Shown here: piece by piece, positions 16,525 to 21,357 of the stretch
Layout of the letters: the number at the start of each line of letters is the position of its first letter
Numbering within the stretch: position 1 is the stretch's first letter
DNA from: Phycisphaerae bacterium
GTDB lineage: Bacteria > Planctomycetota > Phycisphaerae > UBA1845 > UTPLA1
Direction of reading: 5' to 3'
Length of the DNA: 64,000 bases
Assembly: GCA_019636475.1 (NCBI GenBank)
Contig: JAHBXN010000002.1
Span: forward strand, 434,001 to 498,000
Program-made: the position numbers and the translations under genes
Notes under the pieces: generated by a model
Told to the model about the DNA's origin: nothing
What the model saw: the letters and a program-made list of their open reading frames with translations, nothing else
The model's database searches: none

Positions 16525-17016
16525 TCACGAACTGGGCCTGTGAAGGCGGTAGCTAATGAGTAGAGCGACTATCAATATGATGAGCGCTCCGTTGCGAACA
16601 AGCGACTCCTGAATGGTCAATCTGGAGAATGGGCCCATACACCCGCATTTCTCGCTCCATCCGACTGATTGGCCGAGTTGAACCAGCATGGCAGAGAACA
16701 GGATCAGGCAGATTAGCGTGAACCAGGAAGCCACACGCGGGAACCTGCCAGTTGCAAGCCAGCAGCCAAGAATGACTTCAAAAATTGCGATTGAATAGGC
16801 AACGACCGGGGACGCGTCCCACCCCAGCGCGCCAAACGCCGCCATAATCTGACCCGGGCCGTAATAGAGTTTCTGAGTTCCCGCGACAACAAAAATGAGG
16901 GCCACTGCGGACTGTCCGATGAGAAATGCGGCCGGGAAGAATTTGCCCAACAAGGCGTATCTTGATGCCGTTTTCACGGCACTGGCGCCGATCGACCATG
17001 TCGGAGACGGGCTCAT
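16525..17016 (-). CDS. MauE/DoxX-family redox-associated membrane protein
   Basis: 163 residues from the ATG at 17016, chosen because it overlaps the stop of the upstream gene as ATGA, a sign of translational coupling; a longer frame begins at 17043. Four hydrophobic segments are visible. Family hallmarks are the F-V-V-A-G-T-Q-K-L-Y-Y stretch in the first helix and, between helices 3 and 4, the cysteine pair in E-K-C-G-C-M-G. MauE-type proteins supply or remove reducing power for disulfide chemistry outside the cytoplasm (known for methylamine dehydrogenase maturation). Being coupled to a 12-cysteine exported protein two genes upstream makes a disulfide-handling role likely here (inference). 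Confidence 0.75.
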   Translation of the reverse strand: MSPSPTWSIGASAVKTASRYALLGKFFPAAFLIGQSAVALIFVVAGTQKLYYGPGQIMAAFGALGWDASPVVAYSIAIFEVILGCWLATGRFPRVASWFTLICLILFSAMLVQLGQSVGWSEKCGCMGPFSRLTIQESLVRNGALIILIVALLISYRLHRPSS

Positions 17017-18119
17017 CGCCGTCGCCCACGCTGCGCTACCCATACTGAACAGGCGCGGAATCCAAGAACCACGGCGACAATAAAGACACCGATATATGTA
17101 GCGGCCATTCCCGGCTTCTGTCGGCCTGGCGGTGGTGTCGAGGGCTGGGACATTGCATAAGCCGGCACTTCATGCAACTGACCGGCGGAGTCCGCTTCAA
17201 AGGCGATCTGACGTCCGCCGTGCAACTCCGTTCGATTATCCAGGACGAGTGAATTCGGCGGAAACTGAAACTGCATTGCCTCGGGGGACGGGACGCCGTA
17301 CACGAAAGATTCGGTTCGAAGTTCGCTTCGCCGAATCAATGAGCCGTTATTATCGCGTAATTCGATTTCGGCCAGACGCGGAACGACGCGACCCGCAGCG
17401 TCCCTTCCGTAATAAATGGACCCGCTTGCCCGATTATCGCCTGATCTCCAGTTCGTGATGGAAAAATCGAACGCCGCTGACAATGTCATATTTATGACAC
17501 TTATCCCGTCTGCGGCAATCCTGATCAGGCAATCGCCATCATTTCCATCCCAGAAACCCCGAATCTGAAAACGATCATCTCCCCGGAATGTCCCAAGGCC
17601 CTTCTTTGAACCAGGGATGAGCCAATCTGCCGGACTCTTCGAACGAAGCAGGCCGGGACGTAAGATGGCGGCCTGACGGGTGCGACACAGGAAATCGATC
17701 TGTCTTTCAGCGTCCTTCACGATGACGAAGTCCTCGTATTCGTGCCGCATCAACTCCTCTGGAATGTCGAAGGCGGCATCCAGTCGCTCGCGCTGTCCGT
17801 CTCGCCACCATCGCATCGTGCCGGTCATGTGGCCGTTGTTGTAGGCGAGGTGCGGGACGGACTGAATCGATTCCATCGAGAACCGTTCGAGATTCTCGTG
17901 GAAAGTCAGTGAGAATTCGGCACTCAGTGCATCGAACTGACTCTGCGTTGCGGTCGCCTGATCGAGAATGGCTTCAAGTTCGTCAGCCGCAATCGCCATG
18001 ACTTCGGGGTTTTGAGCATTCGGGCCATCCATTCGATTGCCCTCTTGTCCGATAGCGATCGGTGCCACAGCGCACAGCGATACACCAACTATTATGCTTG
18101 TGTGAGTTCGCGTTAACAT
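17013..18119 (-). CDS. Exported LolA-like protein with C-terminal membrane anchor, unknown function
   Basis: 368 residues, start ATG 18119 with AAGGAG 7 bases upstream. A signal peptide covers about residues 1-24 (ending I-A-I-G-Q). The body looks like a half-barrel beta sheet of the LolA/LolB or DUF2092 kind (residues about 50-300: repeated hydrophobic/aromatic strands, W-W-R-D-G-Q-R-E-R-L). This is a weak structural guess. A single transmembrane helix near residues 340-357 (I-G-V-F-I-V-A-V-V-L-G-F) ends in R-G-R-R-R, so most of the protein would face the periplasm. It sits between the cysteine-rich gene (48 bases away) and the MauE-like gene (4-base overlap). Confidence 0.65.
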   Translation of the reverse strand: MLTRTHTSIIVGVSLCAVAPIAIGQEGNRMDGPNAQNPEVMAIAADELEAILDQATATQSQFDALSAEFSLTFHENLERFSMESIQSVPHLAYNNGHMTGTMRWWRDGQRERLDAAFDIPEELMRHEYEDFVIVKDAERQIDFLCRTRQAAILRPGLLRSKSPADWLIPGSKKGLGTFRGDDRFQIRGFWDGNDGDCLIRIAADGISVINMTLSAAFDFSITNWRSGDNRASGSIYYGRDAAGRVVPRLAEIELRDNNGSLIRRSELRTESFVYGVPSPEAMQFQFPPNSLVLDNRTELHGGRQIAFEADSAGQLHEVPAYAMSQPSTPPPGRQKPGMAATYIGVFIVAVVLGFRACSVWVAQRGRRR

Positions 18120-18167: not shown

Positions 18168-18554
18168 TCACCAACATCCCTGCACATACACCTGATATTC
18201 GTTGCAATAGTCCTCACATGTCCCGCAGAAGAAATCGGTGACATAATAGTCTCGATAGCACATCATATTCTGCCGAAAGCAGGTGGTTGGGTAGGAGATG
18301 CACAGTTTAAACGGGAAATTATGCCCTTCTTTACAACCCGACACTCCCCCTTTCACACACTCATAGCCAATCGATTCGACGCAGATAAATGTGGCATCGC
18401 ATCCCCAATAGACAGTCTTGCCGCATTTACCTGCAATCAACTCACCTCGTGCCACGCCACAGACATCCACCATGACCAGTCCGACTGCCACAATGAAAAT
18501 CAACAGCGAACTCATGAATTCCCGCAGAGTGGCTGCTCGTGGTTCTAATCGCAC
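18168..18554 (-). CDS. Small exported cysteine-rich protein, 12 Cys in the mature part
   Basis: 128 residues from the GTG at 18554, with a perfect AGGAGG 5 bases upstream; ATG at 18515 is a second in-frame start that begins right at the signal sequence. The signal peptide runs to about G-V-A-R-G (residue 37). The remaining 91 residues hold 12 cysteines, many Tyr and Phe, and end in C-W; no known domain is recognised. An even number of cysteines in an exported protein suggests six disulfides. It is first in a minus-strand set with a LolA-like protein and a MauE/DoxX protein. Base composition is lower in GC than flanking genes, which may mean transfer. A toxin, adhesin or enzyme subunit are all possible. 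Confidence 0.7.
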   Translation of the reverse strand: MRLEPRAATLREFMSSLLIFIVAVGLVMVDVCGVARGELIAGKCGKTVYWGCDATFICVESIGYECVKGGVSGCKEGHNFPFKLCISYPTTCFRQNMMCYRDYYVTDFFCGTCEDYCNEYQVYVQGCW

Positions 18555-19178
18555 GGCTACCTCCTTTCACATTGGGATTGATCTCTGCCTGCTTTACACG
18601 CCCATAGGTTAATTCTACCCCCCCCCCCCCCTCAGAAAGAAAAGAGAAAAAAACAAATTTACGAGATCGAAGAAACCTCAGGTGACAGTCTCGCAACTGT
18701 CATCGGGGTGCAATCAGATACAAACCCGACATTCGCAACTCACACGGGACAATGTGGTTGAGAACGCCTGAAATCTGCTTATCACTGGCAAGTCAGTGAC
18801 CGGCATCGAAGCCGAACTCGAACCACAGTCATGTCATCGAGCTTCGTACCCTTCAAACCGTGCCTCACCTACAGCCACGGGAATCACCAAATCGACATGG
18901 TCGCCGTCGCATTTCGCACTCGGCATGCAACGTGTCGCATGCGCTGCAAGACAGGCCACATTCCAGGATTGATCATCCACGCTGCCAGTTGCCAACGATT
19001 GGTGTCACTTCGCCTCAAGCCCGGCAGGTCAGGAACAATGCGTTCTGCCGCCTCGTCGCCGCAGGTCGTGCGAGGTGCTGAATCTGGACACCGCCAATTG
19101 TGGCCGTTACGATCCGATTTCGGAGGGGTGATGCTTGGCCGTGAGTGGCTTGGCGTCCATCAGGAGCCATCGACCTGC
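18555..19178. other. Divergent intergenic region with G tract, no gene seen to the right of it
   Basis: The left part (18555-18660) is the leader and promoter of the cysteine-rich gene. The frame of the methyltransferase stays open from 18831, but its codons there do not look coding and the homologous region starts at 19179. Nothing else was recognised. Confidence 0.4.
18612..18641 (-). promoter_or_regulatory. Promoter with a 14-G homopolymer between -35 and -10 positions
   Basis: On the minus strand TAGAAT (18612-18617), five of six to the -10 consensus, is directly preceded by 14 G (18618-18631). The G run fills nearly all of the spacer, and a T-rich region (18635-18660 read on minus) lies upstream where a -35 and UP-like element would be, though no good -35 hexamer is present. 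The predicted leader is about 50 bases to the GTG at 18554. This is the layout of phase-variable promoters in which tract length sets spacer length. Confidence 0.55.
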
Positions 19179-19913
19179 ATGTGGAAGAGCATTTTACAGC
19201 GTTGTGCCCGATCGCTGGGCTATGAAATTTCGCGTCGCGGGAAAGCCGAGACCTATACGGAGTGCCCACCTTACGGATACTTCACGTATTCGCCCTGGTT
19301 CGAGCCGTGGTTTCAGGAGAAGTACAACCGCATCAAGGATCATACGTGCGTCAAGGAAGACCGCTGTTACATGATTTATCGCTTCGCGCAGACGTGCGCG
19401 CGTCTGCCCGGCGATTTCGCGGAATGCGGTGTATATCGCGGCGGGACCGCGGCACTGACGGCGGGGACGCTCGTTGAAAGCGGCATCCATGGCAAGCAAC
19501 TGCACTTGTTCGACACGTTCGCCGGCATGCCGACGACGGCCGACAGCGATCCGAGCAGCCACAGGAAAGGCGACTTCGGTGACACGAGCCTTGACCATGT
19601 GAAAGGCCTGTTGCGCGATTATCCGTTCGTGACGTTCAACCCGGGCTTCATTCCGCAGACGCTGGAAGCGGTGAAGGATCGGACATTTGCGATGGCGCAT
19701 ATCGACGTGGACCTGTATCAGTCGACGCGCGATGCGTTCGAGTTTTTCTATCCGCGCATGAGTCCGGGCGGCATCATGCTGTGTGACGACTACGGCGCGC
19801 CGGCCTATACCGAAGCGGCAAAGAAGGCGGTGGACGAATTTTTCGCCGACAAGCCCGAAAAGCCGATCTCTCTTCGGAACGGCCAGTGTTTCGTGATCAA
19901 AGCGCCGGCCTGA
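19179..19913 (+). CDS. TylF/MycF-type O-methyltransferase family protein
   Basis: 244 residues from the ATG at 19179 (AGGAG at 19162-19166, a rather long 12-base gap); the open frame continues upstream to 18831. It matches the macrocin O-methyltransferase family: G-D-F-A-E-C-G-V-Y-R-G-G-T-A at the SAM site, L-F-D-T-F-A-G-M-P, a central G-D-F-G-D-T-S, then H-I-D-V-D-L-Y-Q-S-T-R and G-G-I-M-L-C-D-D-Y-G, where the aspartates bind Mg2+. The founding members methylate sugar hydroxyls in macrolides; in most bacteria homologs act on unknown glycans or are linked to surface sugar modification. No sugar biosynthesis genes are next to it, so the substrate is open. Confidence 0.8.
   Translation: MWKSILQRCARSLGYEISRRGKAETYTECPPYGYFTYSPWFEPWFQEKYNRIKDHTCVKEDRCYMIYRFAQTCARLPGDFAECGVYRGGTAALTAGTLVESGIHGKQLHLFDTFAGMPTTADSDPSSHRKGDFGDTSLDHVKGLLRDYPFVTFNPGFIPQTLEAVKDRTFAMAHIDVDLYQSTRDAFEFFYPRMSPGGIMLCDDYGAPAYTEAAKKAVDEFFADKPEKPISLRNGQCFVIKAPA

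Positions 19914-20112: not shown

Positions 20113-21357
<1,245 letters not shown>

Follow-up and report, generated by a model that had tools for sequence, protein, structure and literature searches.

A 14-G run abutting a putative -10 element upstream of a cysteine-rich, export-like protein: a candidate phase-variable promoter in the Phycisphaerae

Introduction

Does a run of 14 guanines, located directly before a putative -10 element in the genome of a Phycisphaerae bacterium, act as a length-variable switch of the operon that it precedes? The run lies in a stretch of 64,000 nucleotides, hereafter the window (contig JAHBXN010000002.1, positions 434,001 to 498,000), for which an original prediction had proposed that the run fills the promoter spacer of an exported-protein operon and is phase-variable.

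In Neisseria meningitidis porA, a poly-G tract is located between the -10 and -35 elements (11G, with 9G and 10G in escape variants), and changes in its length alter expression (PMC3639595). The poly-C tract of opc is placed over the -35 element in PMC7864442, at odds with PMC2791445, where it is located between -10 and -35. In Treponema pallidum, the poly-G promoter of tp0126 works best at a distance of 17, and tprL transcription begins with the fourth nucleotide past the poly-G run (PMC7864442). The repeats of Neisseria nadA are located upstream of the promoter, act with a repressor and change expression (PMC2791445), while PMC2831843 deals with runs within coding genes. The review PMC11868660 contains no word beginning with "Planctomyc", and, among the papers listed and as far as titles and the openings of abstracts go, the literature that joins phase variation with Planctomycetes/Planctomycetota, or homopolymers with MAGs and promoters, has yielded no case of this kind of promoter outside pathogens.

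The G14 run and the putative -10 element

Read on the minus strand, a T-rich stretch and a TGA are followed by G14, the hexamer TAGAAT, 57 nt and the GTG start of gene 1 at 18554 (Table 1). The tract, the T-rich strand just upstream of it and its unusual length within the window had all been described beforehand, and all three are borne out: the second-longest homopolymer in the window has a length of 8, and dinucleotide shuffles of the window contained C14 in 0/100 cases and G8TANNNT in 0/100. The window's own genome (4.41 Mb, 18 contigs) has eight G/C runs of at least 10, of which G14 is the longest. A long homopolymer that adjoins the -10 element within the core promoter is one of the marks of the porA/opc type of promoter, and G14 has this arrangement.

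Table 1. Features of the G14 locus and of the operon downstream (positions in the window)
Feature	Position	Strand	Remark
G14 homopolymer (C14 on the + strand)	18618..18631	-	longest G/C run in genome
TAGAAT, putative -10 element touching G14	18612..18617	-	5/6 to TATAAT
T-rich stretch at expected -35 place	18632..18660	-	best hexamer 3/6
AAGGAGG, Shine-Dalgarno of gene 1	18560..18566	-	sequence
Gene 1: 128-aa export-like protein	18168..18554	-	12 Cys in mature part; AAGGAGG before start
Gene 2: 368-aa protein	17013..18119	-	hydrophobic N- and C-terminal segments (by eye); adjoins gene 1 in relatives
Gene 3: MauE/DoxX-family membrane protein with CGC motif	16525..17043	-	Pfam MauE; homolog in G003

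The proposal that the run fills a promoter spacer holds on one side only: the run touches the -10 element, but no recognisable -35 element is found beyond it, as the hexamers located 12-25 nt upstream of TAGAAT have at most 3/6 matches to TTGACA, and a consensus promoter scan has found no minus-strand promoter at G14/TAGAAT. Since the -35 element is not recognisable, G14 cannot be shown to be a -35/-10 spacer in the window promoter; on the other hand, as the nadA repeat alters expression from outside the spacer, the missing -35 element does not exclude a switch. An Rfam search of the window gave 0 matches, and the single-strand DNA fold around G14 is not better than that of shuffles, in a fold model without G-quadruplexes. 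The divergent neighbours of the operon are an ORF of a TylF-family methyltransferase (18831-19913) and recA (20113-21357).

The three-gene operon and its relatives

The protein of gene 1 has 13 Cys in total, and 12 of these are located after the signal peptide (cleavage by eye), while its N-terminus is hydrophobic by a crude score; this agrees with the 12-cysteine exported protein of the original prediction, and with the exported or surface products of porA/opc-type promoters. A Pfam search of gene 1 gave 0 families. The methylamine dehydrogenase light chain, MauA, also has 12 Cys; gene 1 was considered as a MauA and, with its 0 Pfam families, rejected. Its PDB matches are antifungal proteins, all with E 0.5 or worse. 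In NCBIfam, one of seven gene 1 homologs matched the hypothetical family PRK10040 (E 0.0014), and the window protein had no match. Gene 2 has no Pfam family, its PDB rows have E 0.06 or worse, and no search result backs the LolA-like reading that was considered for it; single-sequence structure predictions were too poor for use (mean pLDDT 41.8 for gene 1 and 36.9 for gene 2). Gene 3 matches Pfam MauE (E 1.2e-15, 58.4 bits, cut-off 27), and we infer that its product may assist disulfide formation.

When the region was searched as DNA against 61 genomes, among them its own, the only match was the region itself, and a scan of genome contigs with gene 2 has confirmed no relative. Relatives of gene 2 occur in 6/114 genomes of the order, and a profile of gene 1 has matches in 6/397 class genomes; both counts include the window's own genome. 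The gene 1 matches comprise 7 intact copies and 3 fragments, and two of the fragments belong to a single split copy; in this profile search, 11 first-look candidates per genome were scored among the rows listed, so that the set of copies may be incomplete. The seven homologs share ten invariant Cys columns. In G003, which belongs to another genus of the same family, the three homologous genes are found in the same order, with identities to the window operon of 29-31, 23-25 and 32 percent for genes 1-3 (the ranges reflect different alignments). In a second operon copy of G019 (L324, L334, L336), the 12-Cys gene is split by an insertion that carries a transposase-like ORF.

Repeats upstream of the 12-Cys gene

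A run or a tandem repeat is located upstream of the 12-Cys gene in 7/7 intact copies from the 6/397 class genomes, and the kinds differ. Next to the G14 of the window, the copy in G003 has C13, plus A8; just before the Shine-Dalgarno sequence of the gene, G019 has an array of 9 bp x12.2 (L320 862-971), G044 one of 10 bp x12.1 (L321 867-987) and G065 one of 8 bp x6.1 (L323 820-868); and the two copies of G029, which are paralogs, have T9 and T8. A repeat kept at one gene across lineages, by which SSR contingency loci are recognised, is found at all seven copies, two of which count as weak evidence (T9/T8), because T runs of 8 are present twice in the window itself.

In G003, C13 is located upstream of TATATT, with 116 nt between its end and gene 1; that genome has 13 G/C runs of at least 10 in about 5.4 Mb, so that, by our own arithmetic, the chance that such a run would lie in the 300 bp before any one given gene is roughly 0.0007. 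The arrays of G019, G044 and G065 were first spotted by eye and measured afterwards; TRF, applied to 221 loci (690 kb, overlaps included), gives a score of at least 90 to these three arrays and to no others of period 5-12. The predicted promoters TTGACA-19-TAGTAT in G019 and TTGACG-16-TAGACT in G065 lie upstream of the respective arrays, as does a weakly predicted one in G044; the repeats would be situated in the leader, and, as they sit past the predicted promoter in G019 and G065, a switch there would act after initiation. Near one operon copy of G029, on the side away from its promoter, there are three 14-bp arrays (L326 117-785, TRF score at least 90).

G-filled promoter spacers in the order and beyond

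The pattern TTGAC-N(6-15)-G8-TANNNT has 31 matches in 25/114 genomes of the order, against 2 matches in 2/114 for the reversed control, while G9-TANNNT alone gives 65 vs 28. The promoter scoring of 101 tracts suggested the pattern, and its 31 matches are therefore not fully independent evidence: 7/31 were already among these tracts and 24 are new. The reversed-pattern control covers the order set, and the wider set consists of the matches listed.

The genes that follow such spacers are mostly export-like. In the order set, export-like products are found at 23/26 sites vs 20/82 background ORFs (p 6e-9), and Cys-rich products at 12/26 vs 5/82 (p 1e-5); among the matches listed in the wider set, export-like products are found at 78/105 sites vs 187/680 (p 6e-20), and Cys-rich products are not enriched (6/105 vs 19/680). 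These counts leave out the sites without an ORF (5/31 in the order set and 16/121 in the wider set); the background ORFs are those that a simple Shine-Dalgarno rule picks out, and "export-like" denotes a crude hydrophobicity score, not SignalP. The matches listed for the pattern with a G9 spacer (L167-L282) come from many phyla, with Clostridia, Spirochaetes, Saccharibacteria and Alphaproteobacteria among the groups represented, and export-like genes often follow them.

In the window's own genome, a -10-like hexamer is located within 3 nt of 6/17 G runs of at least 9, vs 3/29 runs of exactly 8 (one-sided p 0.05); the remaining 11/17 longer runs have no such hexamer within 3 nt, and some of them are located inside long ORFs. 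At five of the six sites the downstream gene can be read, and the crude score classes all five as export-like; the remaining site (L083) is near a contig end. One of the three sites with a run of exactly 8 (L067) has a fair -35 element, TTGAAT, at a spacing of 17, and its ORF is not export-like.

Two of the six sites, L045 and L007, precede paralogs that are 38 percent identical, with 16 Cys in the former and 14 in that part of the latter which lies within the contig. Their family profile has 6 members in 4/114 genomes. The promoter can be read for five of them and in each case has TTGAC or TTGAT followed by a G-rich spacer; the remaining member, L317, starts at a contig end. Another protein family, A7, follows G-filled spacers in 2/114 genomes (G001 and G012, spacers 20 and 16). 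A near-identical leader occurs twice in the window's own genome (L005/L073 and L317): one copy follows G10 on contig C7, and the other, where contig C3 ends, precedes a 161-aa protein with 20 Cys.

Tract and spacer lengths

Several homologous tracts, among the pairs listed, are unequal in length: G10/G9 in L288/L291, with flanks that are 85 percent identical; G13/G12 in L190/L216; G9/G10 in L196/L214; G9/G11 in L182/L240, with spacers of 19 and 20; and G12 and G13 in two copies within G003, which have 97 percent identical flanks and are both near contig ends. The spacer is constant at 19 in the G002/G013 orthologs and the L149/L163 paralogs, with an A interrupting the G stretch in 3/4 of them, and it is 18 in both copies of L221; in these groups, judging by the sequences, spacer length appears to be fixed. 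The spacers of the 121 wider-set sites, among the matches listed, are distributed as 14:6, 15:11, 16:18, 17:10, 18:27, 19:35, 20:9, 21:4 and 23:1, and those of the 31 order-set sites as 14:3, 15:3, 16:5, 17:5, 18:3, 19:9, 20:2 and 22:1, so that both distributions peak at 19 and not at 17, where the wider set has a dip.

The conserved spacers of 18 and 19, the interrupted G stretches and the peak at 19 would be expected if what matters is a G-rich spacer of fixed length, whose sequence counts because of DNA shape, G-quadruplex formation or contact with a regulator, with slippage as a side effect under purifying selection. We regard this as rather unlikely for G14, given that spacers span lengths from 14 to 23, that the listed pairs include tracts of unequal length, and that relatives of the operon carry C13 or repeats of 8-10 bp in place of a G-rich spacer.

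Discussion

The reading that we favour, with a probability of roughly 0.7, is that G14 is a slippage-variable promoter tract that serves as a random expression switch. On this reading, G14 is hypermutable and lies in the promoter of three genes that form an operon for an exported, disulfide-rich protein; its length would grow or shrink by slipped-strand mispairing at replication, presumably also among cells of this species; the change in length would shift an upstream element, either a weak -35 element or an activator contact, relative to TAGAAT, and single cells would then differ in the expression level of the operon. We infer, in addition, that TAGAAT is used as the -10 element and that the length of G14 sets expression. 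The switch proposed in the original prediction gains from the comparison, through the promoter class (31 vs 2), the export-like and Cys-rich products and the repeats at all seven copies, and it loses through the window promoter itself, where no -35 element is recognisable, through the several related promoter pairs that have a constant spacer length, through the rarity of the 12-Cys gene (6/397 genomes, among the candidates scored) and through the wider set, in which Cys-rich products are not enriched.

If G14 were a homopolymer that arose by chance in intergenic DNA under little constraint, without a regulatory role, the missing -35 element of the window promoter and the 11/17 own-genome runs away from any -10-like hexamer, some of them in long ORFs, would be readily understood, but the enrichment of such runs beside -10 elements and before export-like genes, and the presence of a run or repeat upstream of every intact 12-Cys copy, make this quite improbable. 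An assembly or sequencing artefact in the length of the homopolymer is very unlikely, for, although several long G/C blocks of other genomes are located at contig ends, which means that assemblies handle such blocks badly, G14 is internal to a 650-kb contig, and G002 and G013, whose genomes are single contigs, also have G9 sites with the poly-G promoter pattern.

The favoured mechanism, slippage in a promoter tract, is already known from porA, opc and tp0126; the lineage, the gene class and the turnover of repeats appear to be new. The window promoter shares with porA a poly-G tract that lies within the core promoter and precedes a gene for an exported product, and differs in having no recognisable -35 element and in its unrelated product and organism. 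The closest likeness to opc is found in the G003 sister operon, which has TTG-C13 at the expected place of the -35 element; the spacing to TATATT there is 20 if TTGCCC is the -35 element. With tp0126 and the tpr genes, whose products are outer-membrane proteins, the shared feature is poly-G in promoters, whereas the spacers found here peak at 19 and the products in this order are often Cys-rich. The nadA promoter is comparable in that its expression responds to a repeat outside the -35/-10 spacer, but its repeats are located upstream of the promoter, while the window run touches the -10 element.

Repeat-driven switches are, in the literature consulted, known mainly from pathogens; here, promoter-spacer poly-G recurs across a bacterial order and precedes a class of Cys-rich exported proteins, of which the window's protein matches no Pfam family. 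At one operon, the repeat type seems to have been exchanged several times. It is conceivable, at somewhat less than even odds, that slippage switches a set of promoters in the order, with six or more candidate sites in the window's own genome, which control exported, often disulfide-rich proteins; that the repeat of one operon has been replaced repeatedly in kind (G, C, 8-, 9- and 10-base) while its presence has been kept, by selection on switchability itself; and that G-filled spacers may work at 19, not 17. If so, a comparison of the repeat kinds that one operon carries would allow a direct test of selection for switchability, and export-like genes in many phyla would be located by a simple promoter pattern.

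Runs of G10 also occur inside long ORFs of the window's own genome (L006 2073-2082 and L008 2020-2029), where they may be frameshift switches.
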